A stretch of 64,000 nucleotides of DNA from Planctomycetaceae bacterium (GTDB lineage: Bacteria; Planctomycetota; Planctomycetia; Pirellulales; Pirellulaceae): positions 1 through 64,000 of the forward strand of contig CANHVO010000002.1 in assembly GCA_947463915.1 (NCBI GenBank), given 5' to 3'. The notes under the pieces are model-generated. The model had not been told where the DNA came from. It saw only the letters and a program-made list of their open reading frames with translations, and did no database searches. The position numbers and the translations under genes were made by a program. Positions 25,665 through 47,372 of the stretch are shown here, one piece after another. Each line of letters starts with the position of its first letter. Position 1 is the stretch's first letter.

Positions 25665-26993
25665 TTATGGAAAGCAGTTTCCGAACGCTGCCAAAAGTTT
25701 AGGATTCCCCCAAATACGCACTTGCATGGTCATTAGCAACCAACCGATGCTCGCTTCTTTACGAAGCAGGCGAAGCCAACCGCGCGACGATGCGGTGATA
25801 CGAATGTCGCAGTCACCTTGCAAGCCATCCTCGACTTTGATTTTTTGGTCGCAAATAGTGACCGTGCATTCCGCAGGCTGTTGACCCGTGAATCGAAAAT
25901 GGTAGCGTGCCGAAAGACCTTTGGATCGGCCGGGTTGGAAGCCATGACGCATGAGTTTAATGAACCCAGGAATCGAAACGGGCCGCAAGACAGCACCGAC
26001 TTGTTTGACGTGCTTGTGAGGAAAGCGTTTTCTGACGTAAGCTTCCGCGTCGGACCGTGGCTGGACGTAGATCGTTTCCTCCTTTTGCTGGAGCGGTTTG
26101 ACGACTTCCGAAATGAAACCGCTGCGGTCCTGCAGGAATGGAGAAATAACATCTTCACCGGCGGGGCAGGCGCTCAAGCAGTAGGCTGCTTTGTAGTTTG
26201 GACCAAAGGCGAGCGACTGCCACATGGACGCGCTTTCGCTGTCGCTTACTTTGTCTCGGTAACGAACGGGATTTGGACTACCTGCGATCACTTCAACCCA
26301 GTCGGTGAAGCCACTCATGAACTCGCGGTAATTGTGCGTATAGCAAGATGAAAAATTGAATTCGCCGTCAGGTGAAATGGCTCCCACGGGACATGCTGCA
26401 ACGCACAGTTTGCAAGTCAAACATGGATTGTAATCAATAGGTGCACTCTCCTCGGAGACGGCCACATCGATGAGTACGGTTCCCAAGAGAATGAAGTTTC
26501 CAAACTTGGGATGGATCACGTTTCGGTGCAGGCCCATGTGCCCAAGTCCAGCCGCAACAGCTAACGGTTTCAGCGAGATGCTCCACATCTTTCCCGGAAA
26601 CTTGTCCATTTCCATCGGGAACGCCATCGGTGGATTGAGTGCTCGAATTCCCAATTCGGAGAGACGAGCGACGATACGTCGTGCGACATCGTTTACTTCA
26701 TCGCCCGTTGCGTGAAACTCGTGGTTCGCCATAATTCGGGCAGGGCTTCGAACCGACTCGGGGTTCATTCTACAAACGATGCAAATGAGCGATCGCGTAG
26801 CAGGAAAAATCCGCAAAATATCGGATCGTTCGTTGTCCATTTCAGGTCGATTCAAACCAACAAATCCTACGTCTGCTGCACCTGCTTCCAGGCACAATCG
26901 ATGCAGTTCCAAAGCGTCAATCGAAACCGGTGGGGAAGGATTGTTTTTTGCTTTGTTTGCTACAACAGTTGGATGATCTTCAAGTCGATTCAT
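25665..26993 (-). CDS. QueG-like 4Fe-4S protein fused to SCP2-like domain
   Basis: The 442-residue protein resembles the epoxyqueuosine-reductase group without being clearly QueG. C191-x2-C194-x2-C197-x3-C201-P is a 4Fe-4S site; the second site is reduced to a C-x3-C pair in YCLSACPAGED. The last 90 residues have the SCP2 sterol-carrier pattern, which QueG lacks. It may be a redox protein for a hydrophobic substrate. AAGGA lies 7 bases before the ATG at 26993. The promoter is divergent from an HxlR regulator and overlaps two palindromes at 27020-27053, so it is likely repressed by that regulator. Confidence 0.78.
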   Translation of the reverse strand: MNRLEDHPTVVANKAKNNPSPPVSIDALELHRLCLEAGAADVGFVGLNRPEMDNERSDILRIFPATRSLICIVCRMNPESVRSPARIMANHEFHATGDEVNDVARRIVARLSELGIRALNPPMAFPMEMDKFPGKMWSISLKPLAVAAGLGHMGLHRNVIHPKFGNFILLGTVLIDVAVSEESAPIDYNPCLTCKLCVAACPVGAISPDGEFNFSSCYTHNYREFMSGFTDWVEVIAGSPNPVRYRDKVSDSESASMWQSLAFGPNYKAAYCLSACPAGEDVISPFLQDRSGFISEVVKPLQQKEETIYVQPRSDAEAYVRKRFPHKHVKQVGAVLRPVSIPGFIKLMRHGFQPGRSKGLSARYHFRFTGQQPAECTVTICDQKIKVEDGLQGDCDIRITASSRGWLRLLRKEASIGWLLMTMQVRIWGNPKLLAAFGNCFP

Positions 26994-27019
26994 TTCAGAT
27001 TCCTTAGTAGACAACAACA

Positions 27020-27053
27020 ACTTGCACTTCGCAAGTACTTGCAATTTACAAGT
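27020..27053. promoter_or_regulatory. Tandem operator-like palindromes between the divergent HxlR and QueG-like genes
   Basis: Two 17-bp palindromes lie head to tail: ACTTGCACTTCGCAAGT (27020-27036) and ACTTGCAATTTACAAGT (27037-27053). On the minus strand TTGACA (27063-27068) is followed after about 16 bases by TAAATT, so the second palindrome covers the -10 region of the QueG-like operon. On the plus strand TTGCAA and TATTGT, 17 bases apart, could serve the regulator gene. The ACTTG...CAAGT symmetry suits a dimeric winged-helix repressor of the HxlR/YodB type. This is inference from position and symmetry. Confidence 0.65.
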
Positions 27054-30979: not shown

Positions 30980-32074
30980 TTACTTAAGATAGGCCAGTGT
31001 AAGCAAAACATAGCCTGTTACAAGGTTCGGGTCACCTTCCATCCAGCGTGCATCTGGATTGGTCCACGATCCATTCTCCTTTTGGGTGTTTTTCAGCTGG
31101 ATCAATAGCTCCGCTTTCCAGTCGTGATTTCCATCCTTGGCGCCGAATTCCTTTTCACCTAGTGCAGCCAATGCTTTGGCCATCGTATGTTGATAATAGT
31201 ACAACCCCGAACTTCCCATACCGGGATTGGTCGACACCGAGTAGTTGTTGTACAAAAATTTCTTGGCCGCTTTGACGCGAAAATCTTCCTTGTCGACCCC
31301 GGCGAAGATCATACTCTTCATCCCGGCGTACGTCATCGAAGCATAGGATCTCAACCCGCCGTTTTCCTCTTTGCCGGCCATCGAATCACCGCCATTGGCG
31401 GGGGTGTAGTAGAACCCACCGTCATTGATCTTCGATGCGAACTCGGTCCTGTTGTTGGCTGACTCCAGGTTCTGGCAGCGAGACACAAACGCGAGCGCTT
31501 TCTTTATCGCTTCATCTTCCTCACTCACACCTGCACTTCGCAATGCGTCGATCAAGAACGCAGTGTTGGAAAGATCGGGGCGCGATTTACTTCCGTACCC
31601 AGCTCCACCATAGGCAACATCATCGGACTTGATACCTTCGCCTTCGTCCCATTGCTGCAATTTGACAAATTTCTCAGCCCCACGAATCAAATCGGTGTAT
31701 TTGCCGTCCTGATTCGCCTTTGAAAACGCCATAATCGCCAAACATGTTTCATAATTTGCGTGCGTCGACTTGGGCGCGTACAAACCGCCATCTTCGTGCC
31801 TTGTGCTTTGCAGGTACTTTAAGGACTTCGCCACAACAGGATGGTCGGGCGGCAGATCGACCGAAAGGAGCCCCGCGACCACCAATCCAGTCACCCCTGG
31901 CCCAGTTTTGCTGCTGAACGAACCGTCCTCGGCTTGTCCAACATCGCTTAAATAGCCGACCGCTTTTTTGACCATCTCCAGACGCTCGGCTGGTCCTTGG
32001 GCCTGAAGAAACGAAAAGGACGAGACCATCCACGACGCGACGAGGCCAAAAGACAAAAGGCTTGTTAGTTTCAT
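30980..32074 (-). CDS. Exported alpha/alpha-toroid protein (prenyltransferase/squalene-cyclase repeats)
   Basis: The 364-residue protein has a signal peptide (about 1-26). Repeated helices with the QxxDGSF/GGxxY-type turns of terpenoid cyclase toroids follow: VGQAEDGSFSSKTGPGVTGL, RHEDGGLYAPKSTHANYETC, and KENGSWTNPDARWMEGDPNL. The catalytic DxDD motif of squalene cyclases is not seen, so it is probably not a cyclase. Such proteins occur widely in planctomycetes with unknown roles. A related fold appears at 61519-62643. It stands alone, with a 300-bp repeat-filled gap upstream. Confidence 0.78.
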   Translation of the reverse strand: MKLTSLLSFGLVASWMVSSFSFLQAQGPAERLEMVKKAVGYLSDVGQAEDGSFSSKTGPGVTGLVVAGLLSVDLPPDHPVVAKSLKYLQSTRHEDGGLYAPKSTHANYETCLAIMAFSKANQDGKYTDLIRGAEKFVKLQQWDEGEGIKSDDVAYGGAGYGSKSRPDLSNTAFLIDALRSAGVSEEDEAIKKALAFVSRCQNLESANNRTEFASKINDGGFYYTPANGGDSMAGKEENGGLRSYASMTYAGMKSMIFAGVDKEDFRVKAAKKFLYNNYSVSTNPGMGSSGLYYYQHTMAKALAALGEKEFGAKDGNHDWKAELLIQLKNTQKENGSWTNPDARWMEGDPNLVTGYVLLTLAYLK

Positions 32075-32379: not shown

Positions 32380-34107
32380 TTGTGGACACTGGAAAGGATA
32401 TTGAATCTGACGCCCCAAATGCATGCCAAATTGCTGATCGACTCGGCATCGAGTACACTGCCCATCCCACGACTACCCCAAAACAATCTTTCCTTTACCG
32501 AATTCCCTGTCGAGTTTTGCATGGGTCAACTGCGATTTCGAGTGCCAGATGCTCAAAGCTACGACGCGCAAATATGGGGCACCGCGTTCGTATCTGGCAT
32601 CGAAGGGATACCTTGGGCTAGCAAAAATCGAGTCGAAAAAGACTGCTTGATCATCGAGCGGGCGGTCAACGAATCCGGAAAATTGTCGATCGTTTGGCCG
32701 ACCGAAGAGTACGGGCCGATCATGCTTTCGACCGCGTCTCTGCGATGCCAAGAGACCCCCTATCTCCTACACCTCGAACTCGCCCGAGGAACCCTTCATC
32801 GCATTCGCGGTCGGGGAATCGATTGGCAACGCCTCGGACTTAAATTGCCTGAAGCATTTGCTTCACTCATGGATCGCTCCGTCTCGGCGTTTGTTCAAGC
32901 GATTCTAGCGGCGGACGATTTAGACCGTTGTGTCAAGCTCGCTCAGATGGCCATCGATTTCGCCGTGAGCGCATCAAAACCACTCTGTCGGGCATTTATT
33001 TCACAGGCTTTGCATGCACGTCATCAGTCCGAAAAGCAACTCAGCACTCTCTTGGGTGTCAAGCTTGCACCGTCGAAAGCCTGGGAACAAGATGTAGAAG
33101 CCATACTACCAGCTATCAACACCATCAACATCTCGATGGAAATGGGCCAACTCGAAACCGAATCCAAAGGATCGGCGCTCGCCGTTATCGACTCACAACT
33201 CCAGTGGGCGCGACGCAATTCGCTAAGGATCTTCGGAGGCCCACTGCTAAATCTTCAATCGCATGCTGTGCCTAAGTGGCTTTATCTCCTCAGCGATTTC
33301 CAATCGATGTACGAGGCCGCTTGCAAGCATGCCACGATGATGGTGGAAAGATACCGCGGCCAAGTTCACTTGTGGTCGGCAGCGGCGGGTCTGAACGCCC
33401 CCAACACATTGGGCATCACCGACGAACAAGTATTGCACTTGGCTGTCGGTGTTATTCAAGCCGTCCGTAGAAGCGATCCCAAAACACCGGTTGTCCTCAA
33501 CATCGATGCGCCGTGGGCTGAATACTTGGGACAAAAGTCCGATGGCATTAGCCCTTTGCACTTTGCCGATGCTCTCATCCGTGCAGATCTAGGCCTTTCA
33601 GGATTAGGTCTCGAACTCAATTTCAACTATTGGCAAGGCGGGTCGATGCCGCGAGATCTCGTCGATGTTTCCGACTTGATCGATCATTGGAATATCCTGG
33701 GGCTGCCTCTCTTGGCTCACGTCTCCGCACCCTGCCATCTGCAAACCGACCCAATGGCAACCTCCAAATCTGAACTGGTTTCGAATTGGCGTTACCCAAA
33801 CTATCCGTGGTGGGATCAGTCACAAATGTCCGACAGCGGCTCGATCGAACTTCCATCCGGCGAACCCATTGCACCGGTGCTCGCCAACATGAATGCGACT
33901 CCTGCGACCCGAGAACGCATGCCCGTAAACGGGTTGGAAGTCGTGCAGATGCTGCTCGCCAAGAGCAATGTTCACGGAATATTTTGGAACCAATATTCGG
34001 ATCGAGAAGACCACGCCTTCCCAAATGCAGGACTGGTCGCCGCAAGCGGAAAACGACGCTCCCTGCTCGATGGCCTGAGTCGCCTCCGCCAATTGCATGT
34101 GCATTGA
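32380..34107 (+). CDS. GH10-like glycoside hydrolase family protein
   Basis: The 575-residue protein has an N-terminal beta domain (about 30-130, ending SLRCQETPYLLHLELARG) and a TIM-barrel part (about 230-560) that follows the GH10 xylanase order. Where GH10 has the acid/base Glu in WDVVNE, this protein reads WSAAAG. At the seventh strand, where GH10 has the TE nucleophile, it reads LLAHVSAP. So both catalytic glutamates seem absent, judged by eye. It may bind rather than cut a polysaccharide. No signal peptide is visible. The TTG at 32380 follows a family B repeat closely; an ATG at 32419 is the alternative start. Confidence 0.7.
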   Translation: MWTLERILNLTPQMHAKLLIDSASSTLPIPRLPQNNLSFTEFPVEFCMGQLRFRVPDAQSYDAQIWGTAFVSGIEGIPWASKNRVEKDCLIIERAVNESGKLSIVWPTEEYGPIMLSTASLRCQETPYLLHLELARGTLHRIRGRGIDWQRLGLKLPEAFASLMDRSVSAFVQAILAADDLDRCVKLAQMAIDFAVSASKPLCRAFISQALHARHQSEKQLSTLLGVKLAPSKAWEQDVEAILPAINTINISMEMGQLETESKGSALAVIDSQLQWARRNSLRIFGGPLLNLQSHAVPKWLYLLSDFQSMYEAACKHATMMVERYRGQVHLWSAAAGLNAPNTLGITDEQVLHLAVGVIQAVRRSDPKTPVVLNIDAPWAEYLGQKSDGISPLHFADALIRADLGLSGLGLELNFNYWQGGSMPRDLVDVSDLIDHWNILGLPLLAHVSAPCHLQTDPMATSKSELVSNWRYPNYPWWDQSQMSDSGSIELPSGEPIAPVLANMNATPATRERMPVNGLEVVQMLLAKSNVHGIFWNQYSDREDHAFPNAGLVAASGKRRSLLDGLSRLRQLHVH

Positions 34108-34190: not shown

Positions 34191-35087
34191 TTATGCCGCC
34201 CGGCGCTTCTCGTTGTTCTGAACCGTACTTCGTTCTGTCTCCATCGCCAAACTCGCCAACTCCAAGCGGCTTTGAACAGAGCGAACAAAGGTCCTGTCGC
34301 GGATCCCCATCACCCAACCCAGTCGTTCCGCAACCGTCTTGGGGCTCATCAATCCACCGGCTAGATGCCCAAGCCGTCGTGCGAGAGAATCGATGACGAC
34401 TCCACTCTCTTCAATCGACGAATACGCACATGCCAATTGCCCACAGGCACGGCCAATTTCGTATCCCGCTTCATGACCAGCGGCCACTCGTTTCGAAGCG
34501 TGTACCGTGACTTCTTCCGCCGCCTCGATTTCGAATTCCATGGCGGAAGCCAGAAGAGCAAATTCGACTTCAGCGATCTCCCGCGTGCATGGCTCCAGCC
34601 ATCCACCGATGCTCTTCAACATACGTTTGCGAAAGACTCCTCCGCAAAGCAACGGAGCGGCCACGACATCAGCGGAGTCAGTGACCCGACGATGTGGCAA
34701 TGATTCGCCTGAGAGCCCTAGATAGAGCTCATTCGTAGTAACGTCAACGACGGGTAGGCATACTGCAGTTACAGTTCTGTCCTGCAGCAAATGGAGAGCT
34801 TCGTCGCACCAATTTGGGTCCACCACCGAGCCTGGCAGCAGAACTTGAACGATCGGCGAGCAAGCGGAAGCGACCGCCAAATTGAGCTGTTGGGAGAAAC
34901 TGGCTCCTTGCTCCGACTCGATTAAAATCACTTCGTCTTGATCCAAGCCATAAGGGTCGTTGTAGCGACCATCGTGAGCTAAAAGGACTTCGAAATCGCT
35001 CTCTCGGTTCTCAAGAATTGAGAGGAGAGTGAGTTCGAGACCAGAATCATCGTGAAGGTGAGGAACAATGATTGAGAGACGCGGCAC
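34191..35087 (-). CDS. Family 2 glycosyltransferase-like protein
   Basis: The 298-residue protein has the GT-A start PRLSIIVPHLHDDSGLELTL and then FEVLLAHDGR, the strand with the nucleotide-binding Asp. The catalytic DxD is not clear (LPGSVVDPNWCDEAL lies in its place), and the domain ends with a helical C-terminus. GT2 enzymes pass a sugar from a nucleotide donor to an acceptor at the cytoplasmic face. The GTG at 35087 has GGAG nine bases upstream; a TTG at 35105 is also possible. It may be a degenerate or non-catalytic member. Confidence 0.65.
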   Translation of the reverse strand: MPRLSIIVPHLHDDSGLELTLLSILENRESDFEVLLAHDGRYNDPYGLDQDEVILIESEQGASFSQQLNLAVASACSPIVQVLLPGSVVDPNWCDEALHLLQDRTVTAVCLPVVDVTTNELYLGLSGESLPHRRVTDSADVVAAPLLCGGVFRKRMLKSIGGWLEPCTREIAEVEFALLASAMEFEIEAAEEVTVHASKRVAAGHEAGYEIGRACGQLACAYSSIEESGVVIDSLARRLGHLAGGLMSPKTVAERLGWVMGIRDRTFVRSVQSRLELASLAMETERSTVQNNEKRRAA

Positions 35088-35416
35088 TTCGATGGACTCC
35101 AGCAAATCGCGATTGGGCGAACTGAATCAACCTGAACTCTAGCATCGATCGGCCAGATTGAAACTGAAATTCAGCCATTTGGACGTTTGCCAGTTAGTTA
35201 AGCCTGGGTGACTTTGACGCCTGCGTTGTTTTGACAATACGGTGATATCCTAAATGCCAAGCGGCCTTGGGCTACCGTGCGATTGCCTACGATTGGGTCC
35301 AACAGTCAGTCTTTACCAAGGTCCGAGTGTTGCCTCGTTTCACGCGATACAATATTGCGATCCAATTACCAGATTACCGAAACTACTGATCCCATCCTTT
35401 TTTTGAGATTGATTCA
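35088..35416. other. Divergent intergenic region
   Basis: This 329-bp gap separates the glycosyltransferase (minus) from the PIG-L gene (plus). TTGACA occurs at 35231 but no good -10 follows at the right distance. No repeat or gene was recognised. Confidence 0.4.
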
Positions 35417-45530: not shown

Positions 45531-47372
45531 ATGTATAGAATCCAATGCGAATGTGGCAAGCCGCTTAACGTGGCATTCGGGGACTTCAACAAAGTCGGAA
45601 GATGTCCTTGGTGTTCTCGTGTATTTACGATTCCTGCACCGGTTGCATTGACGACTGGCAAGTTGCGATGCCAATGTGGTCTTGTGATGGACTATGAATA
45701 TCAGGATGCCGGTCTATTGTGCGAGTGCAGGCAATGCAAGGCTATTTTTAAGATCCCCGGCGGTACAGCTGAATCCATGTCGAGTGAGCTTGACCGGGAA
45801 CTCGCTGCGAAACGGGCCGTGGCAGAAGCATTTAGGATTAGGCAACACAAAAGTTCAAGTCCGCCGCTAAACCCTGTTTTCGAATCGCTGGGTGAGTTTC
45901 ACCATACACGCCAACCGATTGTTCTCGACGACTACGAGCGGTTTGGTATTGAGAGAATGATCGCTGGTGTTGCCCTATTGCTGATGACCTGCGTAACGTT
46001 ATCAGTCATTGCAATGTGGGCTCAAGGCATATTGAGTGTCCCCGACCAATGGCTTCCTCAGCAGTTGAGTTCTATGGAGGTAGAGCAAACAGCACCAAAG
46101 CAATTCCTAGAAGACGAACCGAAAGTGATTCCAATTGCACCTCTCGAACAGCCTCGTACTCAACCCGAGGTATTCGAAACCCCAAGTCGATGGGTGCATA
46201 TCGGAGAAATCCCCCCAAGCGTATCGCCCATTCGTCCCGCAGGTATTGGCACATCCTTTGATTCAACGCTCCTCAGCAATAGCGAATTAGAATCGTTAGC
46301 AAATCAAATCGTAAGCGCTGTGAACGCAAACAATAGCCGTGGTCTTACCGAACTTATGGACCCTGAAGTAATTGGAAACTATCTATTTCAATATGCCGAA
46401 CTCCCGCCCGAACAGAGATTTCAATTGGGCGCAGAGGCGATCGCACTGTATGCCAACCATCCTCGCATATCGGAGCAACTTCCAGACGCTCAAGCGTTTC
46501 CGGCAATTCGTATTGGGCAGTCGATGGTTCCATTGATTCGAGTGTGCAACAATTCGCGTCAAGGCTCAGGCAAATTAACGATGGGGCAAAGCCAGCTCAC
46601 CAACCGTCCTGCGTCGACTCCATCTCCTGAGAGGAAGCGTGCAACGGACGATTTGGTCAAAGAGTACGATCGACTGCGACAAGCATTAGATGCGAAATTG
46701 CCCTCTCGATTCGGAGGACGCACGATGGTCGAGTCGAGTGGCACAAACAACTTTCAACGCACTCCTTTGAACGATCTATTGGATCATCCGGCTGTGTATT
46801 TTGCGGTCATTGCGACACGTAGCCGGTCAGGCAAGCCAGTATTGCTGGACCTAGCCTGCGTAAACTATGACCTATGCTTACTCGACGCAACATGGAATGC
46901 CATTGATCGTGACAATCGTAAAAAGTCCTTCCAGTGCAGTCGCCCCCAAAAACAAACCGAGGAGTATTTCAAAGCGTTTCGTGAGTCGGTCGGCGAAACA
47001 GCGGTCAAGGACATCTTCAAAACCAATTCTGCGTTCGATCAAATTCGAACATACAAACGCGAGGCCATTTCGATTTCCAGTTACCCCGAAGAATCGAGGA
47101 TGGCGGACGCGGGACCTGAGGACTGCCTGAACGCGTTGGAGGTCCTCGAATCGCTCTTTCCGAACGACATGCACAATTTCATGCTCCAATGCTTGACTTC
47201 GCGCGATGCTAAATTTGACAAAGAGGCCCGACTCCTTTTGGATAGGCTTATTGAAATGAAGTATAGTAATGTGCATTTCTACGACGACTGGATGAACACC
47301 TGCCGTCGGTCCGGCGACGTGGAGTTGGCGAGGCAAATAATCGATGCACTTAAGGCAAATTGCCTACGGTAG
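45531..47372 (+). CDS. Membrane protein with two N-terminal zinc ribbons
   Basis: The 613-residue protein opens with two ribbon-type Cys sets: C6-x-C8 with C25-x2-C28, and C47-x-C49 with C66-x2-C69. A membrane segment follows at about 143-168 (GVALLLMTCVTLSVIAMWAQ). The remaining 440 residues form a soluble domain of unknown fold, which would lie outside the cytoplasm; it has an SSYPEESRMADAGPEDCLNA stretch and a helical, TPR-like C-terminus. It may couple a metal-dependent cytoplasmic sensor to an outer domain. No family was recognised beyond the ribbons. Confidence 0.7.
   Translation: MYRIQCECGKPLNVAFGDFNKVGRCPWCSRVFTIPAPVALTTGKLRCQCGLVMDYEYQDAGLLCECRQCKAIFKIPGGTAESMSSELDRELAAKRAVAEAFRIRQHKSSSPPLNPVFESLGEFHHTRQPIVLDDYERFGIERMIAGVALLLMTCVTLSVIAMWAQGILSVPDQWLPQQLSSMEVEQTAPKQFLEDEPKVIPIAPLEQPRTQPEVFETPSRWVHIGEIPPSVSPIRPAGIGTSFDSTLLSNSELESLANQIVSAVNANNSRGLTELMDPEVIGNYLFQYAELPPEQRFQLGAEAIALYANHPRISEQLPDAQAFPAIRIGQSMVPLIRVCNNSRQGSGKLTMGQSQLTNRPASTPSPERKRATDDLVKEYDRLRQALDAKLPSRFGGRTMVESSGTNNFQRTPLNDLLDHPAVYFAVIATRSRSGKPVLLDLACVNYDLCLLDATWNAIDRDNRKKSFQCSRPQKQTEEYFKAFRESVGETAVKDIFKTNSAFDQIRTYKREAISISSYPEESRMADAGPEDCLNALEVLESLFPNDMHNFMLQCLTSRDAKFDKEARLLLDRLIEMKYSNVHFYDDWMNTCRRSGDVELARQIIDALKANCLR

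Follow-up and report, generated by a model that had tools for sequence, protein, structure and literature searches.

The GH18 chitinase-like lectins and the xylanase inhibitors are pseudo-glycosidases, as is established for the GH18 chitinase-like proteins. Heparanase-2 is a pseudo-glycosidase of another family (PMC12406646). These proteins are like the one studied here in that the fold is kept without activity and has taken on a new binding or regulatory role, which is what we propose for our protein; they belong to other GH families and are mostly secreted and lineage-specific, whereas our protein is bacterial, apparently intracellular, and part of the core of its class. The nearest described enzyme family is GH10 (PF00331, clan GH-A). 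The protein, encoded in a 64,000-nucleotide stretch of planctomycete DNA (the window, meaning the whole stretch analysed), shares with GH10 a (beta/alpha)8 barrel, profile homology over the full length, a Trp on strand 4, and a Trp and an Asp on strand 8. It differs from GH10 in that both catalytic glutamates are absent, GxQxH has become GLELN and the GH of GHTLVW has become GP, and it has no visible signal peptide and an extra N-terminal half. Designed Kemp eliminases (PDB 5rg4 and others) are also GH10 barrels without the native activity and are among the top fold matches of our protein, but they are laboratory designs with no evolutionary link to its family. A literature search, outside which most subscription journals lay, returned no description of this family and no GH10 pseudo-enzyme, and for this reason of coverage its novelty is provisional.

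The first-pass annotation had reported a GH10-like open reading frame at 32380-34107 of the forward strand, and the frame is indeed present, with WSAAAG at 33373-33390 and LLAHVSAP at 33709-33732. However, the TTG at 32380 is probably not the real start but lies upstream of it; the comparison of homologues places the start at the ATG at 32521 (residue 48). This is because nearly all homologues begin at an MGxxRF motif (Met in 43 of 49), because the frame of one relative, L003, which is 85% identical over the shared protein, is open for only 4 codons before residue 48 with a stop just upstream, and because relatives share only some 30% identity in the DNA upstream of residue 48, compared with 72-85% identity for the protein. 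The likely true coding sequence is thus 32521..34107 (+), encoding 528 amino acids (MGQLRFRV...). Residues are given here in the numbering of the original frame (G337, V448), and model numbering equals this minus 47. No signal peptide was visible in the 528-residue protein when the sequence was read by eye rather than with a predictor, and the protein is predicted to be intracellular. Glycosidase pseudo-enzymes often become lectins or inhibitors, as the GH18 chitinase-like proteins show, and a non-catalytic lectin of the cell envelope or for polysaccharide binding was considered on this ground; however, neither the family nor its closest Glu-bearing relatives have a visible signal peptide, and the residues with which GH10 binds sugar around its active site have been exchanged, which makes such a lectin improbable.

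The GH10-like barrel that had been proposed from the sequence was borne out by both profile and fold comparisons. The single protein scored 13.1 bits (E 0.057) against the Pfam GH10 model (PF00331), for which the curated threshold is 22.1, and many of its relatives exceed this threshold. With phmmer, the single protein matched xylanases among the PDB sequences at E 7e-6, and a 44-sequence family profile matched them at E 1e-12. Profile alignment by hhalign against nine GH10 proteins of the same order covered 298 columns at 99.3% and spanned all eight strands, and alignment against a divergent GH10 subgroup covered 301 columns at 98.3%. The AlphaFold model, made with the family alignment as input (pLDDT 89.2, pTM 0.88), has eight barrel strands, and in a Foldseek search of this model against the PDB the top 50 matches were all GH10 proteins or GH10-derived Kemp eliminases. 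Because the profile matches, hhalign, the predicted fold and Foldseek agree, we consider the protein a GH10 derivative; searches of Pfam, NCBIfam and PHROGs returned no family of its own for it.

In the predicted structure, the barrel occupies model residues 177-526 (33049..34098; this and all following protein features are on the + strand), as given by AlphaFold with DSSP, Foldseek and hhalign. It is preceded by a small N-terminal beta domain (model residues 1-81, 32521..32763; pLDDT about 93 in the AlphaFold models) and a helical bundle (model residues 83-172, 32767..33036; DSSP of both models), and when the N-terminal half was modelled by itself and compared with the PDB, no solved structure matched it credibly, the best E value being 0.046. 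The bundle carries an ELARG motif in the homologue alignment (model E86-G90, 32776..32790), whose Glu (model E86, here E133) is present in 126 of 126 homologues. In the barrel, an insertion of low predicted confidence (model residues 437-463, 33829..33909) is missing from most of the order, while strand 8, IFWNQYSD (33979..34002), aligns with the GH10 motif FWGxxD and keeps its Trp and Asp.

In GH10, the Glu of WDVVNE is the acid/base and the Glu of ITEL is the nucleophile. That both glutamates seem to be missing was the central claim of the first-pass annotation. Neither of the two findings that it had named as counter-evidence was made: by profile and fold the barrel is of the GH10 type, and our alignments place no Glu at either site. 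On strand 4, W332-S-A-A-A-G337 (33373..33390) stands in place of WDVVNE; since W332 aligns with the Trp of that motif, the acid/base Glu corresponds to G337, and the strand is free of gaps in two profile comparisons. On strand 7, L444-LAHVSAP451 (33709..33732) stands where the nucleophile strand was expected, and the nucleophile Glu falls on a gap with the GH10 profile or on V448 with the profile of the divergent subgroup, an ambiguity that arises because strand 7 in the clade of the window protein is one residue shorter. A structure prediction had been suggested as a check, and in the model, strands 4 and 7 as assigned by DSSP end at the replaced sites: strand 4 covers model residues 284-289 and is directly followed by G290 (G337), and strand 7 covers model residues 397-402 and carries LLAHVS. 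The changes extend further, as the His of GHTLVW is a near-invariant Gly, the Asn of NE is Ala or Ser, and on strand 6 the GxQxH motif is GLELN (33607..33621), with E412 and N414 where GH10 has Gln and His. The His/Gln/Asn set around the -1 subsite is thus absent from the window protein.

Homologues had also been proposed as a place to look for shared replacement residues, and these were found at both sites. Among 126 aligned homologues, the acid/base column contains no Glu at all (G 61, R 37, S 14, A 7), so the loss is neither chance nor a sequencing slip. In the multiple alignment, strand 7 reads HITELG or WITEMG in the Glu-bearing relatives; in one clade of the family it reads HVTAVGVPS-like strings, with the Glu replaced by A, S, G or C, and in the large clade of the window protein it has one residue fewer (HVT-LxxPS), the nucleophile being deleted. 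It could be argued that the protein is a GH10 hydrolase after all, with a catalytic Glu that lies elsewhere and has been misaligned, given that strand 7 is hard to align and that a Glu occurs somewhere in this strand in 4 of the 126 members. However, the gap-free strand 4 with its Glu-free column, together with two relatives, L113 and L115, that align cleanly with both glutamates in place, makes this reading very unlikely, and we rejected it. The only clear nucleophile Glu among the 126 belongs to L111 (8369-9817, VSEL), in which the acid/base is absent; this member is nested in the tree, which would mean either retention or reversal. A second member, L044, may likewise have a Glu at the nucleophile position with the acid/base absent.

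The family was found in 147 of 149 genomes of the window's planctomycete class, mostly with one match each, and in 57 of 60 genomes of near relatives. Full-length members also occur in several taxonomic families outside the class, in a phylum-wide tally that includes weak matches to ordinary GH10s, and a contig scan with the single window protein returned only close relatives, the named ones being Pirellula and Planctomycetaceae MAGs. In a maximum-likelihood tree, 44 family members stand apart, with support of 100/97, from 16 sequences that bear the Glu or are near relatives, and the family itself has two branches, one for the window's class and one further clade. As the tree is rooted at its midpoint, the direction of loss is taken from the activity of GH10 as a whole. 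Outside the family lie L113, L114 and L115, which like the family have a comparable N-terminal half of beta and helical regions together with PW(G/S)EY and R-D motifs, and in which no signal peptide is evident either. Unlike the family, L113 and L115 have an intact catalytic pair, with WDIINE or WEIVNE on strand 4 and HITELG or WITEMG on strand 7, whereas the nucleophile of L114 is Lys; the ELAR motif is not fully formed in these relatives. This pattern supports a loss in an early common ancestor rather than recent decay. Since the acid/base Glu is absent throughout both main clades, it was, on the most simple reading of the alignment, lost before they split. The three loci (L113:7079-8560, L114:7110-8609, L115:7297-8802) are rare full-length relatives and possible living models of the ancestor. 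A divergent GH10 subgroup (L134, L135, L136, L178, L182) was also noted, with WDVVNE on strand 4 but HFTETT or HFTELT on strand 7.

The loss of catalytic residues might also be a sign of a decaying pseudogene. We rejected this candidate, whose probability is negligible, as dN/dS against a 93%-identical relative was 0.07, the frame is intact in almost all genomes and retention is near-universal. Such a dN/dS value reflects strong purifying selection and indicates that the gene is functional.

A functional barrel without the two glutamates might instead be an enzyme with changed chemistry, with E412, E381, D541 or R425 as its working residues and with a different substrate, which might be phosphorylated or resemble a nucleoside. 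The ancestral catalytic face does keep polar residues that could serve such an enzyme, with E381 present as Glu or Asp in 92% of members and D541 as Asp or Glu in 94%, together with R425 and N339; Glu or Asp stands at the E412 position in 108 of the 110 sequences of the class-level clade, the PWxEY and R-D motifs are conserved, and the gene is near-universal, cytosolic-looking and adjoins a purine gene. However, the E412 position is mostly Arg, Lys or Gln in the other clade, and in the strand 5 loop D376-A-P-W-A-E381-Y382 (33505..33525) D376 is variable. The PW(G/S)EY motif of this loop and the Arg are common to the family and the Glu-bearing relatives, and for that reason are not an innovation. 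Moreover, conservation in this family does not clearly favour the catalytic over the opposite face (2.00 versus 1.96 bits, permutation 0.06), in contrast to true GH10s (3.01 versus 2.71 bits, 2.37 overall, permutation <0.0001). This contrast leans towards a non-catalytic role, in a crude test with differing alignment depths. We therefore regard changed chemistry as possible but unlikely, although it is the strongest of the alternatives, and the earlier suggestion of a hydrolase with a different mechanism is likewise less likely than a pseudo-enzyme.

A purC-like gene, which we take to encode SAICAR synthetase, is adjacent and divergent at 29 of the 61 wider loci, with at least 13 taxonomic families and two or more classes represented, the calls being made from the conserved GKVRDxY motif together with blastp, and in 11 of 40 further loci purC is nearby on the opposite strand. 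The adjacency is absent in the window's own genus, which has lost the link, and in about half of the loci. The link may hint at purine metabolism, or may be no more than inherited gene order. One could speculate that an early planctomycete ancestor took up the barrel into its core set of cytosolic proteins with a tie to purine biosynthesis, as a regulator that senses a ligand and controls the side of the pathway with the divergent purC or as an enzyme with new chemistry on a purine-pathway ribotide, but this is doubtful. Other recurring neighbours (FHA/SpoIIE-like, ComEA-like helix-hairpin-helix, aroC) are restricted to clades and to at most 13 loci each, and for the neighbours in the window (a GT2-like gene, PIG-L and a squalene-cyclase-like protein) conservation ends with the closest relatives. 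The weak GT2-like glycosyltransferase at 34191-35105 (-) is convergent with the gene and conserved only in the closest relative, and the protein at 30980-32074 (-) has a repeat domain of the squalene-hopene-cyclase type (Pfam 1e-11) and probably a signal sequence. Elsewhere in the window we noted an iron-sulfur protein whose C-terminal domain is SCP2 sterol-transfer-like at 25665-27044 (-) and a 613-residue frame without a Pfam match at 0.001 at 45531-47372 (+).

Our preferred reading, to which we assign a probability of roughly two in three, is that the window protein is an intracellular GH10-derived pseudo-glycosidase with a binding or regulatory role. A binding or regulatory pseudo-enzyme was one of the two readings offered by the first-pass annotation, and it is the one that best fits a GH10-type barrel with no aligned catalytic Glu. 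Homology to an active family without its catalytic residues, conservation across lineages and purifying selection were all found, as expected of a pseudo-enzyme. Judged by its sequence, the protein lacks defining features of GH10 (both glutamates and the -1 subsite set), and the name GH10 xylanase should not be used for it; a GH10-derived pseudo-enzyme is what it matches by definition, with the inactivity itself being predicted. The barrel has no acid/base Glu in either main clade, which is most simply read as a loss before the two split, and the nucleophile Glu has been exchanged in one clade and has gone with a one-residue deletion in the other. Most of the remaining active-site residues differ as well, and the gene persists as a near-universal core gene under strong purifying selection. 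We infer that the protein does not hydrolyse glycosides, and that the barrel and the helical ELAR domain may form a cytosolic platform that binds a small ligand or another protein and has a housekeeping role. Xylan cleavage would be independent of this gene, because the window genome carries a separate GH10 protein with both glutamates.

Because many members lie above the Pfam GH10 threshold, the xylanase counts of genome surveys probably include them. The loci L139-L156, for example, hold members without a catalytic Glu that nevertheless exceed the gathering score, and automatic annotation has probably named them xylanases. Relatives that bear the glutamates, have half lost them or have fully lost them make the transition from enzyme to pseudo-enzyme traceable and testable. 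It is unusual for a xylanase fold to have become a core protein that is near-universal in a bacterial class and apparently intracellular, and this points to a core function of this planctomycete class that has gone unstudied.
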